Shown here: piece by piece, positions 10,115 to 43,027 of the stretch
Numbering within the stretch: position 1 is the stretch's first letter
Layout of the letters: the number at the start of each line of letters is the position of its first letter
Notes under the pieces: model-generated
The model's input: the letters and a program-made list of their open reading frames with translations, nothing else
Databases searched by the model: none
Told to the model about the DNA's origin: nothing
Program-made: the position numbers and the translations under genes
NCBI GenBank assembly: GCA_000310025.1
Contig: FN649729.1
Span: forward strand, 5,219,773-5,263,680
Origin: Ectocarpus siliculosus
Lineage: Eukaryota > Sar > Phaeophyceae > Ectocarpales > Ectocarpaceae
Length of the DNA stretch: 43,908 nt
Direction: 5' to 3'

Positions 10115-13100
10115 GGGTTAGGGTTAGGGTTGGGGTACGGTTAGGGGATACGGTAACGTGGCAACGTTGCCCTGCCCCTAGCAACACTCCTCCTGTCTTG
10201 CCTGTATCTGGTGCTCGTTGTACAATGGCGGGAATCCGGAGGCAGGAGGGGCCGACCCAGCCACTTCGGACAGGATCTGAAGCATCTCCCTCGCCACTAG
10301 CTGCTGGGACAGCTCCGGCAGGGGGGCGCTGATTCCCTCACGAATTATATACTCCACCGCTGTCCGAACCTTTTGTATTATGCAAACACACGGTACCAGA
10401 AGTGGACAAAACATTATATTTTAAAAGTTGGAGGTACGTCTGGAGTTTATTTTGTTTCAACGATTATTGGGCTAGCTTGTGCCTACCTAAAGACTAAGGT
10501 CAGAATGATTCATCATGTGATCTCAAATAGCCACCGCCAGAAAGTGGTATCAGCTCAATATGAACTGTATCAAGCTGAATGTTAGCTGGATCAAGCCAAA
10601 TGTTAACAGTATCAAGCTAAATATCAAGCAATGGTATCTTGCACTCCGTCACCGCGGGCACCTCCACAAAAACGTGGCGGAAAAACAGGACGAATCTCAA
10701 ACGACAAGAGGCGTTGTGTAACCAAGATGTTGGCACAAGTGATAACTCCGTGCAATCGAAAGAACACAAACTGCAGCATCGCCGTGTAGGCGCTATGCAA
10801 GGGTGATTTTGGCCGCTGTGTGTGATGAAGGCCTGACCCTGACTCAAAAGCGGATTGTACGAAATCAAGCAACACAATGATAAACAAAACCACCACCACC
10901 ACCGCCACCACCAGCAACGAAAACAAACCAAGCTTGAATCGCACCAGTCCGCTCGAGAACGATCACGCGAAAAGGAGACACACAACACAATAGCAACCTC
11001 TCCGCGATCAATTTAGCGCATTCAACACGCCTCTTTTCCGTTTTTTTTCTTCGTTTCTTCACTCACCACTCCAGTCTCCCCCGCCCCCTGGGGTAACCTG
11101 TCCGTGTCTAGCAGATCTAGGACAGCCCCGACCAGCCTAGGAGCGGTGGTGGAGTTGACTCTCTGCAGCATGTAGGGGCGCCTCCAGAGGCATACAAAGG
11201 CCTCGGCAACGCCTGATTGGTCGAGGTCGATACACACATGATAAGATACATGATACGCGAATATGAATATATATTCCATCATTACCCATATCACCATTGA
11301 TGGTGACTCTTCGCGGCCGTTCAAGGACGGATCTCTTTTCATTCAAAAGACAGCAGCGAACAACAACAACAACATTAGCAGCGTGTACGTTTACCTCAGT
11401 ATAGTCTTAACGCCATTTCATCAGTCTTAACGTCAAATCATCAGTCATTTCGTCATTTCCATCACCTACCAATAACAACAACCACAACAACGAGGAGAAC
11501 TCGATGTCCCAACCAATCATATTATCTTGTCACCTGCCATGTACTCTCTAGACTGCGACTGCGACTGTCCAACAGCTGCCGTGGCTCTCCCAAATAGCTC
11601 GGACAGGAATTGCACCACCTTGTCAGGCGTTAACGAATCCCCCAGGACAGGCATCTTCTCAAACAAACACAAACACGGGGAGGGGGGACAGAGGGGGGAC
11701 CGCAGAAGGTAACAACGGCGGCATCAACGTGAGGCTATCTTCCGAAACGGACAACGTATGGGGAATTTGGCATTTCCCTGCTGTGATACCTGGGGTGGCA
11801 CCTCATCATTGAAACCAAGGCAACGAAGGTACTGTACTGCTATATGGTTCCGAATATGTACACGACACAAGATAGCACATCCCGGTGACAACATATTGGC
11901 TAACAAATAAACGGGGTTTTGTTGTGGCTTGAGTCGCCCTATTACTTGATCTGAGAGTAGTTTGATGTCCTGGGCTCAACCTGACCGGAAAAAAATGTCA
12001 CCGGGTATAGTATGGTGTGGCGTGTGCCCAGAATTATGTAGGCATGTTGTCTTGTGTACAACTAGAAGTTAAAGCTACTGTTATCTGTAGGTGTGTTCTG
12101 CGGTCTACAGTACAGTACGACGGTGAGATGTCGTCATTCCATATGTTCTGGACGTCAGCTCCGATATCCTTGACTAGGTTTGGAGTTCCTCTCCTAGCCA
12201 AAACAAAAACAAACACAAAAATAACCACACTTGTCAAAGAGACGAAAAAACAAAACTTGCACCACCTTGTGGCCGTTGAGCGTTCAAATGCTACTGTAAC
12301 CTCATTTATTGGAGGTTTTACCATCAAGAAAACCATTTGTTCGGGGAAAAGCACCGAAAAAGACTAAAGGTAGCAAGAAGTGCGTCACCTTCTTGTCATT
12401 GAGCTTGGCCATGCCAACCTTCATCTCTGCCCCCATCTCCTTCAGCTTGTTGGCGAAAGTTTTGCCCCCTCCCCCGCCACTGCCACCGCCTCCTCCACCA
12501 CCCTCGTCGTCATCATCGTGGTCCTGCACCACGATATCACGATATCACGATATCACAACACCACGATATCACGATATCACGATATCACGAGGGAATCACA
12601 ACGCAGTGTTAAAATCAAAACGGTACAACCGGAAAAAATGCCGCTCTTGTTGGCGACGGAATGTTGGCGAAAAAATGTCCAACTTTGTCCCCAAGATGCT
12701 GTTTGATGGGCATATTCTTCCTGACGCAATTTATTGTTCACCTACAACGGGTTCACCTACAACGGGGCAAAATAAAAACACATGACTCTGGGTGAAAGCT
12801 GAACGTGCGGTGTGTCTCAATTCTCATGAGACGTGCCTGTCGTTGTTTGAGATGTGCTGCAGTGATAGTGTAGAGTGACGATACCAAAACTCACAATCAA
12901 ACGTACATCCCTATACTATTTGCCGCAGCAAAGCGGCATGCATATATGCACACGCACATGAGTTGCGGCTCTCCCCTATCTTGCTACCGGAAAACTTTGC
13001 AACCTTCTACTTCTGATTCAGATTCATCCATCAAGCACGGGATCCACGACATACACACCAGCAGCAGCGGCGGCACCGATTGCCGTACCGCGACCCTCAT

Positions 13101-14209
13101 TCTACCAAGTCTCCGTTCACCGCCCTTACATACCTGATCTCTCGCCGCGATGACGCCCAACCGCTCGTTCTCAGCCGCGCTACCCTCCACCCCCGCCGAC
13201 AGCGCAGCTCCCGTGGCGGCCGCCGCGGCTAGCCTGGCGGCCGGAGACTCGTCGTCCAAACCCCTCACGCACAACGCCACCAAGGTTTCCAAGGGGACAG
13301 GGGATGACGAGGCGGCCAGGTTGGGGGCCGCCTCCGCCAGCGACAGGCATAGCTTGAAGGCTTCCACGCGCACCTCTGGACACCTGCGTCGGTTGCGTCG
13401 TCTTCAAATTAGAAATGATAGAAGTAGCATCTTCTATGCGCCGGTTCCGATTCGGTGGGGGTCCCCGGAAGAAGGTGGTGGTGGGTCAGCTGATAATGAA
13501 CGCCTTATAAGGAAGGGGTAGCCACCTTTTCCAACGTGATGCAGCATGAAAAGTACACTAGTGTTGGTGTGGATCAACTGCCAGCTGCCATCACCAACGT
13601 TTCCCAAGCTCGAACAGCTCATACAGCTGACGTGTTTTCGACTCGAAGAGCCCAGCGAACCTGAACGAACCGAAAAGAAGCATTTACAAAATCTGTATAC
13701 TCACATCAGCTGACGTGTTTTTGATTCGAAGAGCCCAGCGAACCTCATCAAACCGCACACCAACTATACAAACCGGTACATTACACACTGTACAGCCTTA
13801 CTCTAGTCCCCCGCCAGCAGCCACCAAGTAAAAAACTCCCACAAAACAAATGTAGGGCTAGGACTGGCTGCTGCACCTGTCGGCGGTGGCCTTAACCGCG
13901 GCCTTGAGCACCTCCCCGTGGACTGAGCTCCCCACTCCGTCGGCCCCCTCGACGAGCGCCCTCACGGCGAACACCGCCTTCGCTCTCACCAACGCCTCGG
14001 GCTGCTTGAGCTGTTTCGCCGCCGCCGCCACCGACTCCGGCAGCACGGACACCACGCGCAGCCCTAGAGAGCGGTAGCAATAAACATGGGGGGGGGGGGG
14101 GGGGGGGGGGNNNNNNNNNNNNNNNNNNNNNNNNNNNNNNNNNNNNNNNNNNNNNNNNNNNNNNNNNNNNNNNNNNNNNNNNNNNNNNNNNNNNNNNNNN
14201 NNNNNNNNN

Positions 14210-14243
<34 letters not shown>

Positions 14244-16436
14244 GCAGAGCAGGAAAGCGAGTACGGCAGTAGTGGATCTTGGTCGGCCGTATCCTGGGCA
14301 CCGGGCGCTATCACAGCAGAGCGAGACAAGTTGCAATAATATGCTACCAAGTGTCACTTGACTTCATTGGACTTGGCCTACTTCCACACTTCCACACTGG
14401 CGGCAGTCCGGTGCACGAACCAGCGGAGCATCATGAAGACGGATAAAAGCGGACACGAATGGTGGGGTCCGACGCCTCGCTCGTCGGTACCGCTCTTCCC
14501 ACAGCCTGACTGCGCACTACAATCCTGCTCTACAATCTGGCCGACACGTACTCGGGAGTAGTAGGAACAAACAGAAACACAACAACACACAGGAACAAAG
14601 GGAGGACGCACCGGCAGCCTTGGAGACTTCTCCCAGGGCCTCAAGCACAGCCATCCTGGACTCAGGCAAAGCCTTCCTGTTGTCCAGCAGCTTGTGCAGA
14701 TCGAGGACCGCTCCGACGGCATTCAGAGACTCGCAAAGCTCAAAAACCTGCAACAGCGGCAGCAACAGCAGCGGCGGCGGTGACCATATGGTGCCAACTA
14801 TTGAAGCACGAAGGGGGTAGAGGCATCGATTGCCGAGGAAGAACGCAGCGATGCGAAACGTTCGGCTGATCAGAAGCAGCGGCAGCGGCAGCAGCGGTAA
14901 CAGAGAGCGAACCACCGAAGCGTTTACACGGGGTACTGGACCAAAAAAAGGCGGTGGGTTTTTGGGCGGATCGTACTGGAATCGCAGCGGGGCAACGGTG
15001 GTCGCCGCGATGATCGTCTTTTAATGGGGCTTGCTTCATTTCGCGGCCGGCCTGGTAATCGATTCGAAGTGAGGTGATCGCGAGGATGCTCAAGAGGAGG
15101 CGGTATCGCCGCATGATCACCGTAGATGACCTAAGATACCACACTCCTTAGACCGGGTTTGAGAAAGAAACCGCATTTACTCCGCTGTAGAAAGAGTCTT
15201 CTATTCTCCCGTAGAATGAGTGTCGGTGCCGATAATAGCGTCGTTGGAAGGCTCCCGTCAATGTAGACCTTCTCGAAAATGAATAATTTGAGCTACGAAT
15301 AGTCTTCGTTGTGAGGGTAGTCGAGCCGTCAAATCGGTCCAGGGGGCAGGGGGTGAGTCGTCATAGATAGGGGGGAGAGATAGTGTGCTATGCATGCGGA
15401 GAGTTCAGAGGCTGGGGCAGACCTGGCTGAGACACTCTGCGACGGAGCGGCAGAACGGCGCGGTGACCTCCAGCTTCTTGTTGGACAGCACTCCTTGCAA
15501 GGTGGTGTTGCACGCCTCACAGTCCGCTCGCAGCTCCGAGTCCGACTTGCCCTGATGGCGACGGCACGCCAAAGAACGAGGGGGGGGGGCACACAGATAG
15601 CAGAAAATTGTGGGGTGCTGATATTAGAAGAGAGGACGAGCAGTGAAGATCGCGAAGTTGGGGTCAGCAACCAAGCACGCCACCGGCACTCCTGCTATTG
15701 GGACACCGGCAATATACCCGTGCTGCAAAAGGGCGTCACACCACTTGATTAAAGAACCTCTTGTTTTGTCCGCGAGGCTCGGTTCTTACTATTTCCTCTC
15801 TCGGGCAATTAGCTCAACAGCTAGTGCATAGTAATCAGGATAAGCGTATTTTCATGATCGAGTTCGCATGTTTTGATATTTCGAGCCTGGACTTCTTATT
15901 TCCCAGGATCGTCAAGCGTGGGAGTTGACAATTCAGTAGAATTGGCAGCAAGTTGCTCCCCCCGCCCCCCCCCCCCCTCCCCAAAAATGCGATGTCGTTG
16001 CCTCAGGCAACCGTCAGTAGAGCACATTCGTGTAGCTAAGTAATAGGAGCATGCGCATGTACGGTCGACGCAACACATGAAACCGTCGTACAACAACAAG
16101 AAGCTCGACAAGACGCACACGCAGGCGAAACCCTCTGCAGCAGTGTATCTACACATACGCTGCAAAGCACACCACGCACACCACGCGCACCTGTCCCAGG
16201 TGTTTCATGCGCAGCTCCAGCCTCAGCACCCCGCACAGCGAGCTCAGCGCGAAAAAGAGCGTCTTGGTGGTGGCGAACCGCTGGTCCTGCGACGCCGCCA
16301 CGCGCGCTTGCAGCGCAGCCTCCACTAGCTGCGACGCATCGCCTATCCTTCCGAGTGCCGGCGGCTGCTGCTGCTGGGGCCGTTGCGAGGCCGCCGCCCC
16401 AGCCGTTGCCGCTGCTGGTGCCTCGGAACCCGCCAT
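556..16436 (-). CDS. HEATR5/Laa1/SWEETIE-family HEAT-repeat protein, 25 exons, 3' end outside window
   Basis: Large alpha-solenoid protein. Known relatives (animal HEATR5A/B, yeast Laa1, plant SWEETIE) bind the AP-1 adaptor and help clathrin-dependent traffic at the trans-Golgi and endosomes. Exons in plus coordinates, 5' to 3': 16191-16436, 15423-15551, 14612-14747, 13877-14063, 13134-13383, 12389-12523, 11534-11654, 11067-11212, 10202-10369, 9777-9839, 8879-9007, 7878-8131, 7025-7274, 6446-6817, 5627-5721, 5481-5519, 5051-5144, 4584-4772, 3977-4087, 3567-3668, 2573-2839, 2127-2264, 1699-1874, 1332-1449, 556-687. All phases close, giving 1,349 codons without a stop. I aligned by eye with the remembered HEATR5 N-terminal half: FPETVNNLLKSLK matches LPESVAAAAKQLK; CPLGIP matches LPMGIP at identical spacing from a GxS motif; LRCAAGEALGRMA matches ARRAAAEGLALMG; RTGHSLALGCL matches RAGAMFALACL. 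The start MAGSEAP (GCCATGG context) is preferred to an upstream in-frame extension. Lineage insertions: Gly-rich (exons 6, 13, 21), Ala/acidic (12), Ser/Ala/Pro (14). Family length is about 2,000 aa, so about a third is missing to the left. Exon 16 (39 bp) and the exon 7 acceptor (11654 or 11657) are the least certain. Confidence 0.87.
3672..3786. repeat. Interstitial telomere-like TTAGGG array
   Basis: About eight uninterrupted GGTTAG units run from about 3674, followed by degenerate units (TTAGTTAGGG, GGGACAG, GTAGGG) to about 3786. The array lies in intron 19 of the HEATR5-like gene and abuts the acceptor of exon 20. In transcript sense it reads CCCTAA repeats ending in CCCCAG, then the exon. 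Confidence 0.95.
5185..5453. repeat. Imperfect tandem repeat, unit about 82-99 bp, three copies
   Basis: Units begin at about 5185, 5284 and 5372, each starting with ATGAGGGGAAA or ATGATGGAAA and containing the shared blocks CTCAAA or GTCAAATG, ACCAAACA and CACAGACCA. The third unit is the most diverged. The array lies in intron 16 of the HEATR5-like gene (5145-5480) and follows a short CAT microsatellite at 5164-5187. Confidence 0.8.
9568..9745. repeat. Tandem repeat, unit about 52-57 bp, just over three copies
   Basis: Each unit contains TGGCTTGTCGGACATACTC or a close variant, then TTTAGTATGG, then GGTCAGA. It lies in intron 10 of the HEATR5-like gene (9008-9776), close to the donor of the small exon 10. 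No reading frame is conserved across the units. Confidence 0.8.
10001..10147. repeat. Compound microsatellite (CCA)n-(ACC)n-(CAA)n ending in TTAGGG units
   Basis: A run of CCA from about 10002, a second CCA run at 10038-10061, then about 16 CAA units to 10113, directly followed by GGGTTAGGGTTAGGGTTGGGG and degenerate telomere-like units. It lies in intron 9 of the HEATR5-like gene (9840-10201). Confidence 0.9.
12530..12592. repeat. Tandem ATATCACG octamer array
   Basis: Two blocks of three to four octamers (ACGATATC) separated by CACAACACC. Each unit contains GATATC, so the array is partly palindromic. It lies in intron 5 of the HEATR5-like gene (12524-13133), within 10 bp of the exon 6 acceptor. 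Confidence 0.85.
13628..13757. repeat. Direct duplication of about 48 bp, spaced 81 bp
   Basis: GCTGACGTGTTTTCGACTCG followed by AAGAGCCCAGCGAACCT at about 13628 recurs almost unchanged at about 13709. The pair lies in intron 4 of the HEATR5-like gene (13384-13876). Confidence 0.8.
14087..14240. other. Assembly gap (99 N) between poly-G and GA repeats
   Basis: A run of about 24 G precedes N from 14111 to 14209, followed by about 28 bp of alternating GA. The gap is in intron 3 of the HEATR5-like gene and removes no coding sequence that the splice phases require. The apparent long frames across it are artefacts of the N run. Confidence 0.95.
15115..15362. mobile_element. Degenerate MITE copy A
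   Basis: Left end ACCGTAGATGACCTAAGATACCACACTCCTTAGACCGGG and right end GTCAAATCGGTCCAGGGGGC...GAGTCGTCAT are recognisable counterparts of the terminal inverted repeats of the better copy at 17318-17552. It lies in intron 2 of the HEATR5-like gene. It has no coding capacity. Confidence 0.6.
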
Positions 16437-19210
16437 GGCTGATGTTGGTGTCGGAGTCGCTAGGTGGAGCGAAAGAGTCAAGCGACCACCGTACAAGGGC
16501 CGGCGGAGGGCGGCGGAGACAGCAATATTATTCGCTAAATAGCACAAATCGGCTGAGGCATTTGATGAAAAAGGTGAATTACCAAACAAATCGGCTACAG
16601 GCGTTTCATGGAAAAGGTACATCGTTCCTCACCCTAACCCAACTTCCCCGATTGCATGCTTCATCTAACATGTTTACTTATAACTATAAAAACACAAACC
16701 CTGCCAAGGCTGCTGAATATTAACCCCCCCCTCGAGGCAAGGTTCAGGATGCAACATGGGTGTGTGGGCTAAGAGAAGACGAAACGCCAAGACTAAAAGG
16801 TTGCCAGGATAAAGGGTCGCGTTGGTCGCTAGTAGTGTAGGGCGTGATCGCTGTGCCGCGTAGATAGCTCAGGTGACGGTGGTGCGATAAATGCCACCAC
16901 CTGCCACAACCAACGCCGCACTCCTGCCGGCTCTTCCTGCTCTACGTGCGCGACGAGCGCTAATAACTCCTTGGGAGGGTCATGTGCGACATTGCTGTTC
17001 GGGGACGGCATCTGCCGCAAAGTGCGGCATTTCTTGCGATGAACTTCGGCGTCGTCACACGCAACAAGTCATACTCTACAAGTGCATCACTCGCGATGCT
17101 ATCTACTCGCTCGTTATTGGCAGCTCCTTCCCGTGTGTTTAGCAGTTCTGCTCTGCTAACCTACCCTGGTTGGTGCAGCTGAATCTTGCTGCTGTGTCGG
17201 AGAGGTCGCGCGCTATTCTGCAACTGACTCTGTCGCATATGGCATGGGAAAGATCTACCAAAGGTACATTGTAGGAGTAAGGAAGGCGACCTAGAGGAGG
17301 ATACATGCGAAGGTTGTATCATACCGTAGGTGACACAAGATACCACACACCCTGAAGCTGTTTTCAAAGCTCGATTTCTCCACGACGGATTGACTGCTGC
17401 CGACAAAAATGGCGGCGTTGAACCCGTCTCGTTGAGAGCTTTCCGACATCGTGTCGATTCGTTTAAGCATCCTCTTCATCGTGCAGTAAACGAGCTTTGA
17501 AAATCGGTCGAGGGGGCGTGTTATCTTGTGTTGTCATGTACGGTACACTACGCTGACGCAACCCTTGCCTGCTCACACGCATTCGCGCGGAAGAAATTGC
17601 CGGTCTCCTTCTGAACCATGTATCCGTATGAAATGTACGTCCTAATAGATTAGAAAACATAAATACAAACACAGAAAGACTATACCCATTCGAGATAAAT
17701 GCGTCCTCATGTCCTAGACCAACAGACATGCTGTGGGAACAAATGGCTTTCCGAACAACGTCAGCTGGAATATCTAGTTGATGTGTGTCGGGGATAGAAG
17801 GGGTGCACAGGTTGAGGATGTCAAGTCCGGTTGGAATAACTCTACTTCCACGCAAAAAAAAACAGCAGCAGCAGCAGCAGCAGCAGCACGTTGGGTTTGT
17901 TCGAAACACTGAACAAGGGTTGCCTCTACTCGGCCTGTGCTTCGCTATTACAGGGGCAAAGGGGCGGCCCCCGTAGGATTGATTCATCCGCGCCCAACAG
18001 CAGTCATGCGGATTGTTCACACTCCTTGTCCTAAACACTTTACTACGTGGATGAACCTATCGAAATCTGCTTTTGTGCGACCACTGGAGTACCCCAGAAC
18101 ACGGTAGGGAGCGCCTGGAGCTCTGCATGTTAGGGTACAAACGCTGCTCCTGTCGCGCAGCAGCACAGCAGTACTTGTAGCAGCAGCACGAAAGAACAGA
18201 ACCTATCCATGCTTCAGCGTTGCTCGATGTGGGTGTTCACCACCTACTTTGTTCGACATAGATCTCCCTATTACGCCGTCAAGGAATATCGCGGTACCTG
18301 CTTGATGCTTCCCTTCTTCTTGTGCTGCTCAAGCACCTCGCGACGCCCTTCACCGGCACTCTTCCCTCTAAGCTGGTGCGCTTGGACTCCAGACTGGGGG
18401 GGCACACAGCTGTACCACAATATGAGTCCCTCAAACGGGAGTTATGAAGAAAACATGCCGCATGTCGATGTAGAGGGTGCGGGGACGCGAATTAGCCGTT
18501 TCGTTATTTAATGTATTTTTTCGCGATCTCCGACGAAAGTTGTTGGCGGCTTGGACGACCGAGGGTGTAATGCACGCGGCGATGGCGCTGGAAAACTCGC
18601 CGCATTTGGTCCTTGTCGCAAAGGGCGACCTGTACCAACGATAATTGTACAGAGGGGAGAGCCGGGGCATGGCATGAACGAGGCGTGGGCATTTGTGCCC
18701 TGGGGTGCGGAACGAACGGTGGGTGCAGGCCAACTAAGTATGTGAGGGTCTGAGTCGATTTGATCGAAAGTTGAGGTGGTTGTTCCGAGTTCCCGCCGCT
18801 TGGGTGATCTAGGCTCTCTACCGAAAGCACTTCGGGAAGGGCCCTGAAACCCTAATATCAGATTCTGTAAACAGCAGTCTGCAGCAGAGTCCCTGCGTGC
18901 TACTGCAGGCGTAATATGGAATTATGTATTGGGCCCCGTAGGACTTGCTCGCAGAGCTGCGCTGTTTCTTGGGAGTAAAGGAGGGTGCGACGGAGGCGTG
19001 TGCTATGCACTGTGTCTGTATTGTAGACTACTGTATAGACTATAACCCCGAAACATCCCTTTCCGCATCTTGCTGTTATCTCTGTGCTTGTTTCGGGCAC
19101 CGCTATTCCTTGGAAACTCCCTCGCCTCCACAGACTGCTGAAGGTGCCGCCACCCAGGAGCTGTGCAGGCGGCACGGGAAGTACGCTGAGCTGCAATAAT
19201 TGAAGGAGGG
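16437..19210. other. Divergent intergenic region between HEATR5-like gene and channel gene 1
   Basis: About 2.8 kb separates the two start codons, which point away from each other, so both promoters must lie here. I see no convincing TATA box. It contains MITE copy B and a short CAG run at 17863-17888. Open frames here are short and have no recognisable content. Confidence 0.7.
17318..17552. mobile_element. MITE copy B, best preserved, about 235 bp
   Basis: The left arm begins TACCGTAGGTGACACAAGAT and runs to TTTTCAAAGCTCG. The right arm begins CGAGCTTTGAAAATCGG and ends in ACAAC-TGTACGGTA, nearly the reverse complement of the left arm over about 40 bp. The interior shares GCGTTGAA and GAGCTTTCCGA with the copies at 39.3 and 40.9 kb. 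No transposase frame is present, so it is a non-autonomous element. A TA target duplication is possible but not proven. Confidence 0.75.
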
Positions 19211-22200
19211 ATGGAGAATGCTAACGAAGCACCTACAACATCGCTGCCGGTGCCTGCGGACGACCAGCCTGTGGAGGATGGGGTTAGAATACCGAGGCGG
19301 TGGGCAGGGGGTAATTCTGGGGGAGCGTCTACGAGCTCGACGACGGATAGCTCCAGAGGATCGTCGTTGTTGAGGACACGTGGAGACGACGACATGAGCG
19401 CGGCTTCCTTGTCTTCAAATGCCAGTTCGGTTGCCACCTTTCCTGCTTCCTCCGCTCCCGCCAACACCAACACCACCGTTTCCACCTTCGGTGGTGCACC
19501 CACCAGCAGTAGTGGAGCAAGCGTCCAGTCTCGCACTGCTGCAACAAGCGGTAGCGCTAGAGCAGAGCAACGCGGGGCTGGAAACCACAACAGCCAGGAA
19601 GATCAAGGGATTGAAGATGGGATACCCCAGATCCCGGTTGTCGTCGCCAACAAGCCGCGATGCGTCAAGACGGGGGTCGCGCCTCGCGGGCGATTTGGCC
19701 GAGCACACCGGATCGTAACCAGAGCATCAAAGGCCGAGGCGACGGGGAAGTTTTGGAGCGGAGTTAAACCGGCTCGGACCAACTCAACGCTGGTGATTCC
19801 TACAGGAGGAGGCCCGCCTGGCTTGTCGATGGCGACGTTGAGGGCGGCGATGAAGCTTAAGAAGAAGGCCAACGTGATCCAGGCCAAGTCTGTCATGTCA
19901 AAGTACATCGTGGACCCGAGGACCTCGCGCATGCAGTCCTGGAAGAACTGGATGTTCGTGAACATCATGTTCACCGTGCTGGTGACCCCGTGGCGAATAA
20001 GCTTCCGGTGCCCGGCGCACGCCTTCGGGTTGACGCTGGCCGCGATCGCCAACATTTCTTTCATCGTGGACACGGTGCTGCACTTTTTTACGGCGGTGGT
20101 GACGGAATCAGGCCTGCTGACCGAGCGCAAGGAGATCGCACGGCGGTATATCACGTCGTGGTTTTTTCTCGACCTCGTGACCTGTTTGCCGTACACAACC
20201 CTGCTCCGGAGCGTGGTCCCTGCCAGCTTGAGGGTGATGGCGCCGATGCGAGGGTTGCGCTTGCTGAAACTGCTAAAGGTGGTGAAGGTCTACACGTTGC
20301 ACTACGAGGTCAGTCCTTACAGTACGTCGTTTCTCCCGCGGCCGGCTCTTGTGTCTGGACCATCTCTTGCGTCACGAAAGTCCATTCTCGCTGTCTTGTT
20401 CCTGTAGACAGAGCGGTTTCGCAGCAGCCACGCCCAAAGCCTAACGGCCTCCTTTAGATGAAGCTTGAGGTATTGGTGGTGTTGGTGCGGTTAGCGCATG
20501 AAGGGGGAGACCTCGTTTGTCTTAAGCGCAAAGGCACATACTTCTTTCCATTATTTAAGCCAAAATAATAGTCACATGCCGCCACCCTCAATGCATGGCA
20601 GATTTTCCATCCACGGACTATCTGCTCACACAGGTAATCCCGGATGTTTTCGTTGGCGAGTCATATTCTGGAACACCACCATCAGCCCGCAAGAGGAGTG
20701 TGGTTACAGTAGATGAGAAGAAACAGCTTTTGTTTATTTAGAAGAGATGAAAAACAATTTAACGATGCTTTTCTGTTTCGACAGGTGAGCCCCGTGGCCA
20801 TGAGCATCGGGAAGACCCTGGTCACAGTTATTTTGGCGGCACATCTTCTGAGCTGCTTCTGGTTCTGGGTCCACTGCTATGACGACCTCCTAGCGGTGAG
20901 GAGGTGTACAGTAGTAGTAGCGATGGCGTTAGGATATGGTTCGGGTTCCCTCAATTGGAGGCTACTGATCAATATGTCGGAGAGGCTACAGGTCTGTGGC
21001 GCAACTTTGTTGCCGTACTATCGCCGACATACTCCTGCCTTGCGGTTGTGATCGCCAGCACTTGGCGTGCGTGTGCGACTTTGTCAGTGTTCGTCGTGTA
21101 CTATTTCCTGACGTTGTCTGCTCCACTTAACATGGACCCTCCTCCGCCTCCTCGCTCGAACCACGCCGTCGATCAAACCGAAACCGGGGATGAATCGAAA
21201 ACAACACCAACAGGGGGTAGAAACAGAATGGAAGCAGTGCGGATCATCAACATCTGTGGCAAGCCAGTACCTGTCGTCTTTTTACTTCATCATCTACACC
21301 ATGATGACGGTCGGCTACGGAGACCAACACGCAAATCCTTCTGACAAAAAGGCGAGAAACACGGAGTGGGCGAGGGGTTACGCATGTGCCCAATGAGGCT
21401 CAGGGTTGAGACTGGGCGTCACCAAGTTATTTTTTGGCGGTGTGAGAATCAGAATCTTGAAAATGGGACGAGGTAACCACAGCCCGAGCCCTTACTCGGA
21501 GAGCTCGGCCGAGAACCGAGGGGTGGCATTTTTGGGCAAAATGATCCTTCTCCTCATGGAGCTTTGTTTTCAGCAGCAAAGCGTACTCCAAGTTAGGAAT
21601 GGAAGCAAGTTTGCCGTTCCAACACGTTGGAATGTGCGTCTTGAGCCTCCCGTTCTCCCCCATATCGCTGTTTGTCCGCTACATGCCCTCTGGCTGTCAA
21701 CCCACAACATAACCCTCTCACTCTCGCCACCTTGTTCTCGTGTCGGTTAACGGCCGACATCCATCTAACGAAGCGCCTCAACCCATTCTACTGCACAACG
21801 CTTGCTGCATCATCGCGTGCCAGGGGCTGATATTGAGCGTGTTCATCCAGCTTACGGGGGCGACGCTCTTCGGTTTCATCATCGCGGCCACGAGAAGAAT
21901 AGTGCAGTTTATCGCCCCCATCCAGAAGGTCACCACCACCAACCTACAGGTAACGGCAGCACACAGACTGCCGGAGCTGACTAGGAACGCGCAGACCGCC
22001 TACAATGACCTCGGTCGAGCGCTGCTGTTGGTGTAGGAGTATGGCTTGGAATTGTGCTGCAGTTGAGGTCACGGGGACAATTTCGTGTTCAGGCTCGGGG
22101 TATTGCTTGCTGTTAGACGGACAGCGCCGATGGACTTCCATAGTGCAGTCACGCACGTTGGTTTTGTTTGGGGCTGGACTAGCCATGCTTGTGGGCTTCG

Positions 22201-30100: not shown

Positions 30101-33100
30101 TTCCTGCTTGTACTGCGCCTGCGTCGACTTTCCTTCCTTCGCCAATATGGTGTCCGCGGAGAGTCCTGGCCGGTGTGACAAGAAAGAAGGTTAACCACAG
30201 TCTGTTCAGTATTGACCATACAACAAATTTATCTTACCACGCCAAAACCGATAAGTTCCGGAAAACACTCTGTGCGTGTCGTTCTTCGAGGACCTCCTCT
30301 CCCCCCTCCCCCCGTCTCTCTCTCGTACTGAGAAAAGGCGATCGGTCGTCCTCGTTCTCTTCCAGTACAGGTGCCCTGCAGCACAACGCATTCCACCATT
30401 GTGACGTCTGTCCGTCTGCATATCTGTTTCTCTTTTACGGTTGCGGCAGATTCTGGTGGTCATTTTGTACGCGTCGCATGTCTTCGGGTGCTTCTGGTGG
30501 GTAATGAGCCGATACGACAACGACGAATCCTGGTGGCAAAGGGACGGCTTAGATGTCGATGACGCCACGTCCACCTACATTGCCTCTCTCTACTGGGCAG
30601 CAACCACCATCACAACGGTGAGGGGCGGCAGCGTGCGTATGTGTGTGTGGTTTTGAATTCGCATCGACTGCGCGAACGGACTGACCAACGAAAAGACGTC
30701 AGTCTTGTCGCGGGATAAAAAACGCGAAACACGTTCTATTCAAAACGTTTCTACGAAGGTTTTCACGGGGTCACAGGAGTCGGACGATAGCAGCGTTCTG
30801 CTTCTGAAGTCAAGGACTTGATATTTTGCTTGTGTAGGAGTTTGTGTGCACATGCGTGCATACATGTAGTTGTGATGTTAACATCTACCGAGTGGTGCAA
30901 GAAGATGGTCACAGCCATTTTCATCTTCGAACATAATGACGGCGAAACCAACGACACCAACAACTGGGATACGCAACCGGATTCACGCGGGGCAAGGCCA
31001 AGCGTTTTACTGTAGCCGCAACCGCCTCGTCGATCTCTGGGCAAGGCAACAGCTTTGTTAGTTTCCAAGAACGGCGCACTATTTGGAACTCTCCACGATT
31101 GCGCCAACCGCTCCTGTATAGTCCTTCCTCCGACCCATCCGCTCAGTGTTTCTCGTTTGGTTGGTCGGACCTGTCCGTGTGCTTCGATGGCTTGGTGCTG
31201 ACCATGCGCTCGCAAAGGTCAAAAGTCAAACCGCTACACCGTTTATCAAGCCCTTTACGCTTGCATGGAGGGCCACCTGGAACGTTGCATATCATTCCCC
31301 CGACTGTCGGTGTGTGCATTGGTTGGATTTGGCAGGTGGGCTACGGCGATTTGGTTCCAACGAACGATCTGGAGAGGATGATTGCGTGCCTGACCATGGT
31401 TTGCGGGACAACCATGTTCTCGTACGTCATCGGTAGCGTCTCCACGCTTGTCATGTGAGTGCCCGGGCCGAGAGAGTAGCTGCCGAAAGAGATGGAACAT
31501 ATATTCTGCCGTTGTTGCTTCTGAAAGATTGTGCATGTGTCGATGCTCTTGTCATTGTCTGGGGCCTTGCAAGCACTTGCAGCTGCTTCTTTTTGTGCTC
31601 TCAATCTATCGTGGACAACATGAAAACGCCGTGCAGTGCCATCGGAAGCGTGGAGCGGCTCGTTAGAGTGGGGCCGACATCCCTCCCACTGTTCGTGTTG
31701 GAGGTTGTTGCTATTTCCTCGTGCTGTGCGGGCCGCGCTTGCCACACCTTCCCTTGTTCCTTCAACGGTAAACGAAGCCAGGCTAAACCATTCATGTACA
31801 ACGAGACCCGTTGGTGTTGTTTTGACAACCGCCATAACCCGAAACGGCAGTAAGAGTGTATCCGTGTAGCCAGTGGCCAACCCTGCGAAAGGTGGGACCG
31901 TGCGCACCCCCAGCACTCGCGAAGAAACCAACATTGCTCTAAACCTAGGCCGGGGGAACAGCTCCAAAGGATGGCTGAGCCTATCGCTCCGACGGGGAGA
32001 CAGAAAAACAAACTCCATGCTCAAGAAGCGAAACATTACCGGAAAGGTCTGCTATTATTGGTGTCGCATTAACGTGACCGTTTCTCCTCGCCGGCAGGAA
32101 TCCAACTGGGGGAAACGTGCGGCGTAACTTGGAGCTGAAGAACGTCGAAAACTATCTGGAGGAGCAGAAAGTCGGGGCTCATCTGGGCGACGTGAGTACA
32201 CTTGATGCTCTGTCGTCGTCGGGACCTGTCGCACGGTCGCTGAATGTTTCCCTTGTCTCCCAGGCGCAACACAAATATTCAGACTCTCGCTACCTCGGGG
32301 ATAACCACGAAGGGGTGGTTGGTTGTGAGAATAAGCGGTAGAAGAACCTCCGGTACTGCCCGAGAACCCTTCCTTGTGGGGCGGGTACGCCGCCGGGGGC
32401 GGTTAAAAAGCTTGGTCGCAGTGCTCTCTCCGATACAAAAGCAACGCTTCGTAAGTCGCCTCGGGAAAGTCCACTATGGGCACTTGTTGCGAGGAACAGC
32501 CGCCGTTACACGTCCATTCCGGCGCTTGAAGCCCCCCAAAAAAACTTTCGGGGAAACCGTACATTCACGTCCATTCCGGCGCTTGAAGCCCCCCAAAAAA
32601 ACTTTTGGGGAAACCGTACATTGCGTTCGGCGGAAGGCTTTGTATCTTGGTGTCAAACGCAGCACGCGACGTTTGTACGTCATATTTGTACGTCTTACCC
32701 GCACACGAGGCTGGTTTGCCCGTGGACCCTGCTTCTCTTGACGCCTGGAAAGGGTAGCGATGTCGTCGTTGTTTAGTTACGTTCGTTCTCGTTGTAAGCT
32801 GAAACTACAATAATAGTACCCTTGGCTGTAATGATAACAAAAATTGAAGTCACATGACATATATATGTTAGAGGTATTGAACAAGGTCGACACAAGCTGA
32901 CCGTTATTACCTTGATCGAAAAAATGCAGCACAGCAGGGAAAGAAATTGCTGAAGCCGAGGGATCCAAACTGAAAAAAAGTCTCCAACCAAAGTCAACGT
33001 TCGCTAACCCCAAGACGTTTCACTGCATGCATCCGCCTACAAACTACAAAACTATCGCCGAGCCCATGTGTGTCCTTGGTCTGCTCCTCCTTCCTCCCCT

Positions 33101-36109: not shown

Positions 36110-38815
36110 ATAGTGCTACTTACTCGAAGCAAGAACTTCAGCAAAGTGTTTTCGCGCAACCGTGACTGTTGGCGTGATCACGCCATGGTTGAAGTCGTAG
36201 GATGGTTGCTGTGAGTATCATCAGCCAGCCGTCGCGTACAAGAAGAAACGTCTACGTGCTCCTTACTGTAAAAGGTGTCATTTTGAGGGTTGGTCTTTCT
36301 CGCAAAGAGAAAATTGAGTAAAACAAAACTCGAGCCACGGATTTTACCGTATGGGGCACTATTCGGTCCATACTTGCACGTCCTGGGAGCTAGTACACTC
36401 GAAATGTCCACACCAACGCGGTGTCCGTCGCATGTTTTTCTCCCTCCATTGAACCCTGAACACCCCTGAATCTTTCCCCCTGCCTTATTACATATGTTTC
36501 GCGTAATGAAGCCTGCGGTGTAGACCTCTAAAAGGTTGGCCCTGGCTCTGGTTCAATACTGTACCAACCATCTGTAGGTCCGTGGTGTGAACAGTATCAT
36601 TTTGCAGCCAGAATTTGCTTCCCTCAATCGTAATCGCATCACCCGTATTTGACGAAGCTCCCATGTTTTTTTCTCTCCCTTTCAACTTGGATTCGGGGAT
36701 TTCTCTTCTGTTTCTGTTCTGGCCCAGCAGCGGTTAGCACCACTACGGCAATCTCTAGGCGATGTGCCTGCTCCAAGTCTTGAGCACGAACAAGACGCGC
36801 GTCATATCCCACCATCGACCTCTCCATCAATAGATAGAGATAAATCCCGAGAACATGCGGGTATGCCTCAAGGGGAGAGCGAAGTGGATAGTGGAGACGT
36901 GGCCCGGCGATAGCACGAAAAAATAGGTAGAATTTGTTGTTCTGTCCTGTAGAGTCATGCTATTGGAAGGTGCGCAATGTTATGTAAATCAGTGAGCGGT
37001 GGGCAAATAGAGGGGGAAGTATTGGGGTAGAAACATCCACTGGGTCAGGTGCAAAGTGTTGTAGTCCATACTGCTGTTTGTCGGAGTTGTGAGGCGAAAA
37101 ATATCGCAAAACCATTTGGTGATGATTCCTGCAGCTGAAGCACAGCTTCTGCTCCCCACACAGAGCACCAGAACGCGTGTTCGCCGCGATTGCACGACGG
37201 GGAAACCCATGTTCAAGCGCAAATAATGTAGGTTCCGCTTTCCACGAAGTCCATCTGGCACCGTTCGTTTGTTGGTTGCCTGGGGACACTCTGTCGCGGC
37301 GGCGACAGATCCCTTCCACGTGAGCAAACGCAAACACGGCTAGCTCCCAGTCACAGACCTGTTGTTCCAGTTATCGACCCCTAGCCACGCCTTGGCCCTA
37401 GCGGGGCGTAGTGGAAGTAGCAGATCACTCTCGAGGAACCCATGATAGGCACATCCATACACAGACTACACATTGACGCACGAAAGCGCCGTCAACCGTT
37501 TGTACTTGTGCTCTCCGTTACGCAGTCGACCGAGCAACCACCCACGCTTCGTGTGCCGGCGGCAATCGACACCACACAATCGACACCACACACTGTGGCT
37601 CTCTCAGATGGCCCCGGCATTTCCGCGGGTAGTGCAATAGACTCCGGTATGGGATCGTGGCACATGTACATATGTAGTCTACTGTATGTCGGACACACGC
37701 ACTTTATCGCGGGCGGACACGAACGCACGACAGACCTCGCTCGTCAATAGTCCATGTGGGCCGTTGGCGATTGGTGTTGGTGTCCACTATTCTTGTCCAC
37801 CTTTACTCCCTGCGGTACGCGCCAGGAGGCATAATTATAAGAGTCAGAACAAGAGAGTATTGTAAGGATCGTCCAGCTGGCAACGGACCGAACCTGGGAA
37901 CACCACAATTCCCGGCCATGCGCGATGGCGAAGAACCCAAAACTTCCTTACACTGACAGTATTCCAAAAGCTGGTCATGGAGGTCATGATGGGTGGTGCG
38001 TGAGTCGCACAGTGCGAAGGGATACGCAGAAGAGGGAACCTACCGCAAATAGGGTACCCGGCGGCGTTGGTGGTTGGGGGGCGCGAAACATTCGTCCGAC
38101 AGATCCTTCCTACAGCAGTCAGTACCGTAAAAAAAGCAGTGCTCTGATGTGTTCTGCATGCTTGAAAGGAATTGAGACATCTAGACGGCAGCGGTACAGA
38201 AGCACGCGACAGGGAGAAATGCGCTAGTGCATCTACCGACAGGAACCTCCTCTTGGGAGACACTACAGCGCACTTGGAGGCAAGACTTGTGTATGCATAC
38301 GCAACTTGTCGCGTTTCGTCTTTCTTTTTCGTCGAAAACCGTCAGCACGAAGAGCGTTTCAGAATTCAACATGCGGGGCATGTTCACTTCGAACTCCCTC
38401 AAATCCCCAAATAGAGGAATAAAGGTGCCGCGTGCCGCCGGGAGCGTGTCCTTGCTTGCGGCCTCTCAGCGCAACTGCAACGACTGCATGCGTGACAGCT
38501 TGCTGCCGTACGTATTCCTTGCTTTCGTCTGGCTGTTATCTCTCAGGAGCCGGATACAAAATCAAAATCTGCAATAGCGCGCGCTGCAATCAATCTCTCC
38601 CGCGAAATTGGCAAACGGTCATTTGGCGGGAAAAAGGTGTAGGTGTTGTCCTGCACACAACAGCTGTGGAGAGGGAGGGAGGGAGGAACAGGGGGAGGCG
38701 GCGCACTCATCAAGACAGTGGGCGGGACAGCGAAGATATCGGTGCTGCATCCCTGCAGTTTGTTTTGCTGCCTTGGGTGCATCTTGCGTCAATCGACACG
38801 TGACATATATACACC
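36110..38815. other. Intergenic region between channel 2 and the securin-like gene
   Basis: About 2.7 kb. Several frames of 60-140 codons occur on both strands, but none has recognisable sequence, splice-supported partners or consistent composition. Contains the presumed 3' region of channel 2 and the promoter of the next gene. A small ATCGACACCACACA direct repeat lies at about 37563-37593. Confidence 0.6.
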
Positions 38816-41241
38816 ATGTTGAGCACGTGGAATGCCGAGAACATCAACCAAGTCGGTCCGTCCCAGCGTGGGCTCGGCGGAGGCAAGAGCTTCAAGCCTC
38901 TAGGCGATGCAGGTGCGGGAAGGACACAGCTGTAGTTTCCCTCGTGTGCGGGTGTTGCTACCCAGGGGTCTGCGCCTGCTGCCAGCGTGTAGGGTAGGGA
39001 ACAACACAACGAGTGCATCTGCACAACGTGTGCGACGTGAGCAGCCTTGTGCAGAGCGAAATAGACTCTGGCTGTGCCGTGCGGCAGCACTCCCTGGGCC
39101 TAAGCCCCCTGCCACTCCTGCGTACAACCTGGCAAAGAGGTGGAAGTGTTGCGGAGGTGTTGTGTAGAGTAGACAGAAGTTGCTCACGGCCGTGCGGGGT
39201 CTATTGCTGGTGTAGACTACCACTTACTACTGCTGCCGTGAGGTTGCCTGTGATGCACCCGTTGACCGGTTTCAAAGCTCGATAGCTCTGCGGCAAAGCC
39301 AGTGACGTGCCGGAAATATACCAGCGTTGAAACCGTGTCGTGGAGCGCTTTCCGAAAAGGTATCATCTGATTATTGCACCCTCATCATCGTGGAGTGTAT
39401 TAGGGCTTTGAACATCGATCCGGTGGGGGGGGTGGTATCTTGTGTCATATCACCAACCGAGTGTTTCGCGATCATCAGGCAGCGCGTTTAGGATGTAGTT
39501 CGTGTGCACTAGTGTCTTCGTCCCGATATGCTGGCGCCAGTCTTCGCATCTGTCGGTTCATATTTCTCACGTATTTTAACCGAAGTCATACAACATATTT
39601 TCTTTATTTGCGTCTCTCGTTTTATTGACCCATCTCGTGTAGCGGTGTGCCACAAACCAACCCACAACCCAACATAAAACTATTCAATGATTGTCATTGA
39701 ACTTTCGCGCCGCTTTGCACCCAGGGTCGTCAGAGAACCCCCCCTCAGCTTCCGGGAAGGGCATTCTTCAGCGCAAGCTCAAACCCCTGGGCAGCTACTC
39801 CGAAAACGCGCCGCCTTCGGCCGCGAAAGGAAAAGCGGCCGGCGGTGGCCGTGGGCTCGGAGGCCTTCCCCCGAACTCTTCCGCCAAGAAGCAGCCTCGA
39901 CGGGCGCTGGGCGACATCTCAAACGCGGGCAACGGCCCTCCGCCAGCGGCGACCAACAACGCCCCCTCCAAGCTCTCGGGAAAGCAGCAGCTCCTCACCC
40001 CAGGGTTAAAGTTTACCGTACACAGCGATTCGAACAAGGCGGCGGGCGGGGCGGTAAGGCCGCGAGGCGCTGGTTCAAGGGTCGTAGCGAGCGGGAGCGG
40101 AAAGAACGTGGTAGGGTCGAATGGGCGCGTGGATGACATCGAGCTGCCTCTTGGTAGGACCGGAGACGAGGAGGAGGTTCTCGTGGAGAGACGGGCGGAG
40201 GAGAGAGCGGCTGAGAAGTTCGCCAGGCCTCACAGGTGAGCAAGGACATGATGGCTGCACCGCTACTGTCCACAGCAGCAGAGTACCGAAGGTTGTATCG
40301 CTGGTTTTTGGCGGTTTCGCCCGCTTTGTGGGCGAGGATTGGGAGGGTGGAGAATGCGATGGGTGAGAGCTCTCTAAGCAGCAGCAGCAGCAGTAGCGGC
40401 GGCGGCCGTCAGGGTTTGTTAGGAGATACAGTACATGCAGCACTTGACGGCTCGCCACTTGTACGCTTGCCCATGCCTGACACGAGCGGATTGTGAGGAA
40501 CAAGGCGACATCTCTGATCACCGACAGCTAGGCTACGTAGTATCGCGGTACGGTTGTGCAAGTGTGTGGTATGGTTACGGCGGGTGTGATCGCCTGCAAA
40601 AGCCTCTTCGTTGCCTGCTTGGGCTGAATGCTGCTGCCAAGTCTCTATCAAGAACGAAATGACACCAACCCAAATACCGTAAGGATGCGAGAGAATGCAC
40701 CGGGGTGTTAAGTAGTGTTTCTCAACGCCTGATTGCTCCACAACCAGAAGGGTGCAAACACCAACCGACACCTCTCAGGAAAGCCCTCGGCGGGTTGTCG
40801 GCAGTGGTACCCCCGTGCGTTCTCTCGCATCCTTCGGTACCGTAGGCGACGTAAGATATCACACCCCCTAGCCCAATTTTGAAAGCTCGATCAAATCTGC
40901 TCCAAAGACGGTGACGGTGCTGAAACTGGAGGTGTTGAATGCTTCTCGTCCAGAGCTTTCCGAAAATGTGTCGTTTGGTCGGACCATCCCTTTCGTCGTG
41001 GAGTAGTCAAGCTATATACTTGGGCCCGGGATGTATGAGCTCTATGTTACCAGTGGGTCGAGTTCCCGTGTTCTGCTTGTTGTAATTGTCGTTGCTCAGG
41101 GACTTTCACGCCTAGAAAGCACAAGGCACCTTGTGGCCTGTGGTAGAGGATGCTGTTGCCAGCGGTGATGGTGTAGATGTTTGTACGGTGGGGTCTCTTT
41201 GCTGGCGACTTAATTCAGCCCCCACACCATCTTCCTTTTGT

Positions 41242-41278
<37 letters not shown>

Positions 41279-42065
41279 TTCTCTTTCTCTCTCTTTCTCT
41301 CTCTCCCTCTCTCTCTGTCTGTCTCTCTCTCTATTGATGATATATCTATCTCACACACACTCTCACTCTCTCTCCCTCCCTGCCCTCTCTGTGTGCGTCC
41401 CCCCCTCCCCCTCCCCCTGTCCCGCCCGATGGGCTTCCCACCCTCAAGGTCATCCGCCGTCCGTTCAAGCCGATCGCGATCACAGTCAACCTCGTCATCG
41501 TTCCCAAAGGCGTCTTCTTCTTCCCATTCTCGCTCAAAGGGCCGTTTCGGAAGGGATATCACTAACACTGCCGCGGCTGGTGCCAATACTGTTGCCGCTG
41601 CTTCCGGTGTGCTCGAGAAAAGCTTCGACAGCGCTATCAAGGGCATCGTGCGCGCCGACTTTGAAGGTGATTGTGATTGGTAACAATCCTGGCTTCGTAC
41701 ATGTCCTTGTTGACGTTGTTTTCCAGGGTTCCGCCTCTTTGGGGACGCATGGTTTTGACTCTGTGAGTGTCAGGCTCGCCTAAATGACGCTCACTGCATG
41801 GAATAAAACACAGAAGAAATGTCGCAATTTCCAAGACATGGGGAAGGAACATGGCGTTGTTGTTGTTGTTGTTTTTTAAGTCCGCACTGCTTCCTTTGGT
41901 GCAATCCATGCATCCATCCAGAGCGCGAGAAGGAGATCTCCGGGGATGACAAGAACAAGAACAAGGAGAGGGCAGAGGCAAGCCGTGCCGTTCTGGAGGA
42001 CGATTCAGCCCTCGACCTGGATATGGAGGCTGTGGTGAGCTAGTTGCCGTTTCTGTAGTAGGTCC

Positions 42066-42100
<35 letters not shown>

Positions 42101-43027
42101 GTCGTTGTTGTGCTGTTTGGTATAAATTTCTCTACATACTATCTCTTGATTGAATAAAGACCGCATCGTTTGAAAGAATGCTCCGAGGGAAAAGAACTAT
42201 AGACGGTGCGATTTGTATAGGAGTCCTCGAGAAGATGCAAGGAATGGTTCAGCAGCACCCTATTCAACACAAGAGGGCCTTGTTGTGGGTGGTATGGTTT
42301 AATATTCCGCCCTGTCATGTTGACCCGAAAAGTAGTGTCGTGTTCTTCTTGTGTCGTTTCGGTAGATACGCTTTGGACGATACTGCTGAAGCCCGGTCTT
42401 TTTCTGATCTACGTCATCTTTCGTCAAATCTGTCCTAAACACCTACAGTGATTCGGACGAGAGCGTACATTGCTGACACCGCTTCAGCAGGCGTTGGTTG
42501 CTCCTGTGCTTCGTAGCTTTGCCGTTGCCATTTGCAGAGCCGGGTGTGTGTGTGTCAACAGAGAATCTCTGCCGTACATTGCCGTGCGTGCATTTTGCAT
42601 CCTGTTGCTGTGCAGCAGCATGGTTGTGGTGAGCTGGCTGCCGTGCTTTGCCGTATGCACACGTGTATTTTGCATCTTGTTGCCGTGCGCTGGGCTGATT
42701 TTTTCATCTCTCTGATCCTCCAGAATGGAGACCCAGCAACCCTCTGCCCTCTCGGCTCTCCCCCGTTAGCTATTTTCTTGCTAGCTGTCTTGTTCCTCAC
42801 GCCCGATTAGTAGTTCTATTGCCCACAAGGGCGAGCCACCGTACCCGTTGGTCTCTCTACTTTCCTTCGAGATCGGTCATTGCGCTCCGCCCATTGTTCC
42901 TCCCCAATACTGTATCCGGTTGTGCTGTGAACAGACCATGGCACTGGAGGCGCTGGAGTCGACGCCTCTCGATCTCGTGGACGACGGTTTCCTCACACGC
43001 GACCTGGACGACCTGAGCTTCGCATAG
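38816..43027 (+). CDS. Candidate APC/C substrate, securin/Patronus-like disordered protein, 5 exons
   Basis: Exons: 38816-38912, 39725-40235, 41449-41666, 41922-42034, 42935-43027; phases 1, 2, 1 and 0 all match and give 343 residues ending TAG at 43025-43027. The start lies in CACCATG. The protein is Gly/Ala/Ser-rich and basic in its first half, and acidic at the C-terminus (LDLDMEAV, then FLTRDLDDLSFA), with no folded domain evident. Visible motifs: a canonical destruction box RRALGDISN at 91-99 (RxxLxxxxN); FTVHSD at 129-134, which fits the ABBA consensus Fx[ILV][FHY]x[DE]; a second degenerate block RFGRDITN at 235-242; and a repeated KPLG...SEN motif (27-36 and 52-60). A D-box plus ABBA, with a basic N-terminal part and an acidic tail, is what is known for securins, Patronus proteins and cyclin N-termini. 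There is no cyclin box, KEN box or recognised separase-binding motif. Function is inferred; the gene model itself is well supported. Confidence 0.7.
39255..39465. mobile_element. Degenerate MITE copy C
   Basis: Shares GGTTTCAAAGCTCGAT, GCGTTGAAACCGTGTCG, GCTTTCCGA and CATCATCGTGGAGT with copies B and D. The right terminus GGTGGTATCTTGTGTCATAT is the well-kept inverted end; the left terminus is eroded. It lies in intron 1 of the securin-like gene (38913-39724). Confidence 0.65.
40838..41035. mobile_element. Degenerate MITE copy D
   Basis: The left end TACCGTAGGCGACGTAAGAT followed by ATCACACCCCC and TTTTGAAAGCTCGAT matches the left arm of copy B. The interior shares GAGCTTTCCGA and TCGTCGTGGAGTA. 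The right arm is largely eroded. It lies in intron 2 of the securin-like gene (40236-41448). Confidence 0.65.
41241..41396. repeat. CT-rich microsatellite, serves as pyrimidine tract
   Basis: Long runs of CT with TTTCT interruptions, then CA/CT, ending about 50 bp upstream of the exon 3 acceptor of the securin-like gene (41448). Confidence 0.9.
42069..42101. repeat. CTG microsatellite
   Basis: About ten GCT/CTG units in intron 4 of the securin-like gene (42035-42934). Non-coding in this model. Confidence 0.9.

Follow-up and report, generated by a model that had tools for sequence, protein, structure and literature searches.

A candidate brown-algal securin with a destruction box and a putative separase pseudosubstrate motif in Ectocarpus siliculosus

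At issue here is how stramenopiles, kelps and diatoms among them, restrain separase. A 2011 survey listed separase for over half of the Heterokonta that it covered, and securin in animals and fungi only (PMC3195147). A candidate securin is offered by a gene near the end of a 43,908-nucleotide stretch of the Ectocarpus siliculosus genome (GenBank assembly GCA_000310025.1, contig FN649729.1, forward strand), hereafter the window (C4:5219773-5263680 in a genome of 189 Mb and 492 contigs). The original prediction for this gene was a stramenopile securin or another mitotic substrate of the anaphase-promoting complex/cyclosome (APC/C). The analysis indicates that it probably encodes a brown-algal securin, or a protein working like one as a separase inhibitor. 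At even odds, in our estimate, it is the first stramenopile securin, one that shows no detectable similarity to those of animals or fungi yet uses the same solution, in which a cyclin-type degron is followed by a copy of the separase site in the alga's own cohesin that cannot be cleaved. Among the literature matches listed, none described a securin from a stramenopile or a brown alga.

The gene and its destruction box

Splicing of the window sequence gave an open reading frame of 343 amino acids (aa) from five exons on the plus strand, running from the ATG at 38816 to the stop at 43027, exactly as originally modelled. Exon 1 (38816..38912) holds the start codon and is followed by exons 2 (39725..40235), 3 (41449..41666), 4 (41922..42034) and 5 (42935..43027), the last with the stop codon TAG (43025-43027) and an acidic C-terminus with RDLDDLSFA at its end. 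Each of the four introns has GT-AG ends and leaves a single frame open, and the guanine-cytosine (GC) content at third codon positions is 0.70 for the whole gene, ranging across exons from 0.56, in exon 3, to 0.81. The gene is single-copy as far as a protein search of its own genome reaches, all five matches being its own exons. Pfam scans of the whole protein and of five fragments gave no significant match (the only two had E values of 2.7 and 2.9) and no cyclin box. No relatives were found in the PDB, nor in viral and prokaryote contig collections, which were not built to hold brown algae.

The destruction box (D-box) RRALGDISN (aa 91-99; 39898..39924, plus strand) fits the consensus RxxLx[D/E]PhixN (Phi, hydrophobic) at every listed position, while its tenth residue is A rather than the reported N or S (PMC5717348); the motif first described as perfect is near-ideal. 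In composition shuffles (n = 20,000), R..L.[DE]Phi.N arose in 0.285% and R.[AGS]LG[DE][IV].N in 0.005%, and RRALGDISN is the only match to the former when the window is read in all six frames (87,812 codons). The candidate protein is, in our estimate, very likely an APC/C substrate.

Genome-wide D-box counts covered the 189 Mb of DNA for motifs uninterrupted by introns, so that intron-split D-boxes and those of other types are missed. R-x-A-L-G-D-[I/V]-x-N gave four matches, against one for a backward control. One is the candidate, a second lies antisense to a larger frame, and the remaining two are a single DNA word present at both C17 and C29. This word, encoding RFALGDVLN, lies in differing surroundings at its two loci (L005 and L006, respectively), with a variant RFALDDVLN nearby in L005, which suggests a dispersed repeat. 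A second pattern, R-x-[AGPR]-L-x-D-I-[ST]-N, matched the candidate, a cyclin on C82 (RRGLRDITN) and a 70-aa frame that shows no sign of being a gene, so that two of its three matches, the candidate and the cyclin, lie in coding exons. These counts are not clearly above control and prove nothing alone; it is the location of the matches that matters.

The C82 cyclin, which unlike the candidate has a cyclin box (PF00134 and PF02984), shares an N-terminal layout with it. The candidate N-terminus aligns with the cyclin degron region as ENA.PS..GKAA.GGG..GLGG..RR.L.DI[ST]N, a similarity reached in 9 of 2,000 shuffles, or in 45 of 2,000 when the D-boxes were masked.

A proposed separase pseudosubstrate and its predicted counterparts in Rad21 and separase

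Separase cuts after Arg in the context [D/E/S]PhiExxR, and this P1 Arg is strictly needed; securin occupies the separase active site, but its P1 is large and hydrophobic rather than Arg, and its P6 is acidic (PMC10317155, PMC12609080, PMC6858450). When Arg is placed at P1 of securin it becomes cleavable, as in human securin (PMC6858450, PMC10317155). Because of these published rules, the Rad21 and separase targets of this genome were examined; the cleavage sites given below are predictions from sequence.

About 70 residues C-terminal to the D-box, aa 165-183 of the candidate read NGRVDDIELPL|GRTGDEEE. They include RVDDIELPL (aa 167-175; 40126..40152, plus strand), a proposed separase pseudosubstrate with Leu for Arg at P1. 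Within it, DDIELPL combines a hydrophobic P1 with an acidic P6, as in known securins (PMC10317155, PMC6858450, PMC12609080).

Rad21 was located by a PF04825 match at C188, and in-frame splicing of exon pairs yielded two predicted separase sites, ...SRVSDIEAVR|DGD... (SRVSDIEAVRDGD) and ...DHDDVEVTR|RADD... (DHDDVEVTRRADD). The second lies downstream of an RKRKL...MKAQL block, a position like that of human site 2. A third ExxR, GLEMDR|P, has no acidic P6. Separase was found as a 793-aa frame (PF03568, 1.5e-70) with GHG and GCS stretches that we take to be catalytic; one of its seven ExxR motifs, SLDIENGR, has the full context. The same frame also holds a SAP domain (PF02037, 1.2e-9) at aa 392-429 (L021:7299-7412, C2), between two matches to the C50 protease model and near the proposed DIENGR self-cleavage site; to our knowledge, a built-in DNA-binding module would be unusual in a separase.

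Over P9-P4, RVDDIE of the candidate and RVSDIE of Rad21 site 1 are identical at five of six positions, a level reached in 31 of 20,000 shuffles; the best match to site 2 is weaker, just three of six. A single further match of the five-of-six grade, RVSDIQ (window, minus strand), was present in 230,800 six-frame codons from 11 stretches, with the Rad21 loci left out. The order of a D-box followed by [DSE][DE]PhiExxPhi arose in 3 of 200,000 shuffles. We propose that RVDDIELPL is a P1-substituted copy of the predicted separase motif of its own genome, the published hallmark of securin pseudosubstrates. Another segment, VLEKSF (aa 257-262), is reminiscent of human EIEKFF and was dropped as a second pseudosubstrate, its P6 being V.

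The acidic C-terminus noted originally stood up, with 14 D/E against 2 K/R over aa 297-343. Net charge is +17 in residues 1-168 and -11 in residues 169-343, an asymmetry as extreme in 40 of 20,000 shuffles, and this basic-to-acidic layout can be read as a degron arm followed by a separase-binding arm. On the predicted disorder the signals were mixed: S, A, G and P make up ~42% of residues and no Pfam domain was found, whereas the charge-hydropathy value, 0.426 against a boundary of 0.420, falls just on the folded side.

These features would fit a simple cycle, in which APC/C recognition, separase binding and inhibition, their timing, and the cutting of the Rad21 and separase sites are steps that we infer. 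Factors of the E2F and MYB types would switch the candidate on before mitosis, and its increasingly acidic C-terminal part would then extend along separase and place RVDDIELPL in the active site. Leu at P1, instead of Arg, would leave the site bound yet uncut, and cohesin (Rad21) would be spared. At metaphase the APC/C would read the N-terminal D-box, perhaps aided by xEN motifs, and the candidate would be degraded; freed separase could then cut Rad21 at RVSDIEAVR and HDDVEVTR, and the sisters would part.

Promoter elements, other motifs and surroundings

Two E2F-like sites precede the gene. The first, TTTCGCGGGAGA (38596..38607, minus strand), has one mismatch to TTTSGCGGGAAA and lies 209-220 bp before the ATG; the second, TTTGGCGGGAAA (38622..38633, plus strand), is exact. 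Between them is AACGG (38614..38618, plus strand), which we take, from plant G2/M genes, to be the core of a MYB/mitosis-specific activator (MSA) element. The pair covers 38 bp, from 220 to 183 bp upstream of the ATG, and provides the only two matches to TTTSGCGGGAAA with at most one mismatch in the window, where 0.44 were expected. AACGG also occurs upstream of the C82 cyclin start, 25 bp from GCGGGAAA, and twice in the 351 bp upstream of Rad21. Together, these elements suggest a promoter of cell-cycle type.

Other degron-like motifs were less convincing. FTVHSD (aa 129-134; 40012..40029, plus strand), put forward as an ABBA motif, has H at position 4 where the strict consensus Fx[ILV][FY]x[DE] needs F or Y (PMC5717348). 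The strict pattern is absent from the candidate and a looser one arose in 5.9% of shuffles, so the ABBA assignment was rejected. The supposed repeat D-box RFGRDITN (aa 235-242; 41543..41566, plus strand) was likewise discarded, since it has R at P4 in place of the D-box leucine or, when aligned on DITN, shows neither the P1 Arg nor the P4 Leu.

Three xEN motifs were found on the plus strand, a type also present in the C82 cyclin. AEN (aa 7-9; 38834..38842) is a weak KEN/DEN-like match, not above chance in shuffles. SEN occurs at aa 35-37 (39730..39738) within the repeat FKPLGDAGSSENPPSA, and at aa 58-60 (39799..39807) within the repeat LKPLGSYSENAPPSA, where it aligns to DENAKPS of the C82 cyclin. 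The similarity between the two repeats is significant (0 of 500 shuffles), but either is linked to the D-box segment only weakly (23 and 17 of 500). By analogy, the xEN motifs may stand in for KEN, as the DEN box may in Patronus (PMC4536785).

At two Mad3/Bub1 loci (L027 and L028), no KEN triplet was seen on the coding strand of either 10-kb stretch, whose exons are unmodelled, and two ABBA-like matches lay in a 64-aa and a 39-aa frame. Mad3/BubR1 usually carries KEN; its absence from these stretches may come from introns or from the range covered, or xEN may have replaced it.

Upstream of the candidate, the window contains ion-channel exons (PF00520, PF07885) at 19190-20404 and 30940-31455 on the plus strand, probably belonging to one or two channel genes. 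At 12987-16628 on the minus strand are frames with the look of HEAT-type helical repeats, three of which had no Pfam match when scanned, possibly parts of one long repeat-protein gene. In a search of this genome, the EsV-1-7 repeat was matched by all 150 scored candidates (of 880 at first look); this family is reported to be expanded in brown algae (PMC7457493), which makes the brown-algal lineage given in the original prediction plausible.

Alternative explanations and comparison with known systems

At the level of sequence, the securin interpretation draws on the gene model, the D-box, the separase-site match, the similarity to a cyclin degron, the promoter elements, the single copy and the presence of separase and Rad21 genes. 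It came out of the analysis strengthened, because a P1-substituted copy of the predicted separase motif of its own genome lies behind the degron; the cyclin-like degron context and the promoter elements add to it, while the arguments from ABBA and from a second D-box fall away.

A number of observations pull the other way. The pseudosubstrate tests are post hoc, the motif having been noticed after the sequence was seen, and looser forms of it are common in shuffles (18% for the plain published [DES]PhiExxPhi, 8-9% for [DE]PhiExxPhi and 1.9% for D[IV]ExxPhi). The genome-wide matches to R-x-[AGPR]-L-x-D-I-[ST]-N number three against seven in the backward control, what resembles the C82 cyclin is G/A/K sequence of low complexity, and that cyclin is the only one of three cyclin loci scanned with a convincing D-box. 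At least two E2F-like matches arose in 7 of 100 window shuffles, a figure on top of which comes the adjacency of the pair at the start codon, and no E2F-like site of this type was present in the 351 bp upstream of Rad21. Rad21 itself is only partly modelled, and a profile search of the genome gave no match to its C-terminal domain (PF04824). The 343-aa protein has no KEN box, which is usual in securins and not defining, and its Pfam scan gave no match to Securin (PF04856); that profile had no match in the genome either, a search that cannot show absence. Strict NxLxPhiE and LPE docking motifs were absent from the candidate in a pattern search, EEVLVE (aa 182-187; 40171..40188, plus strand) being at best a degenerate counterpart of the former. 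LPE, which is reported to be kept among vertebrates and in certain lower eukaryotes (PMC6858450), is not universal.

The missing docking motifs, the frequency of the loose patterns and a D-box far stronger than any other feature would all suit an APC/C substrate that acts otherwise in mitosis, for example as a spindle, replication or checkpoint regulator, and whose separase-like motif arose by chance. We regard this as a real but clearly less probable explanation, given that the motif matches the predicted Rad21 site of its own genome beyond what the general rule asks, that it lies C-terminal to the D-box as in securins, and that no Pfam domain points to a different function. A separase substrate would share the [D/E/S]PhiExxR context; the candidate has Leu where Arg is strictly needed, no [DES]PhiExxR, and a single bare ExxR (EASR, aa 294). 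An artefact of a gene model built from genomic sequence alone sits poorly with the GT-AG introns, the kept frame and the third-position GC. Taken together, a substrate or an artefact is very improbable. Scarcely better placed is a sororin-like cohesin protector removed by the APC/C, which the original prediction had allowed for: RDLDDL in the C-terminus bears a faint likeness to YFRDIDAFE, given as the Sororin motif of Arabidopsis Haspin (PMC11148194), but the core F-x-x-[ILV]-D-x-[FY], derived here from that motif and from mutated S. pombe residues (PMC11148194), is absent even with its ends relaxed to [FYL]. There is no YSR or PIM-type motif in the protein (one FGR occurs at aa 236), no K/R-rich cluster precedes the C-terminus, aa 297-343 holding 2 K/R against 14 D/E, and Sororin_middle (PF09666) had no match in the genome, again in a search that cannot show absence.

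If the candidate is a securin, it adds a member to a functional kind already known, from a supergroup in which the survey listed none (PMC3195147). Searching for a protein that matches the separase sites in the Rad21 of the same genome requires no homology and, if the assignment is true, such kleisin matching could uncover securins still missing from other lineages generally. A defined degron and P1 residue in a named candidate also make a single-gene experiment possible.

With Sororin the candidate has in common that it would be a small APC/C-linked regulator of cohesion, with a weakly similar C-terminal RDLD, and it differs in the core residues and the K/R cluster. PATRONUS of land plants, with its DDLF-like C-terminus, can be likened to it by description only: both have a D-box and an xEN-type motif, AEN or SEN in the candidate and DEN in PATRONUS. 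Patronus, another option of the original prediction, is itself a securin, recognised in plants only recently (PMC9448001). Animal and fungal securins, described as mutually non-homologous (PMC3195147), differ from the candidate in KEN, strict NxLxPhiE, LPE and the Pfam Securin match, and human securin is shorter, 202 aa against 343. Human PTTG1 and yeast Pds1 nevertheless share with the candidate an N-terminal D-box followed by a pseudosubstrate-like motif whose P1 is hydrophobic, and the lack of a detectable domain. The acidic C-terminal part observed in the candidate is also a feature of known securins.

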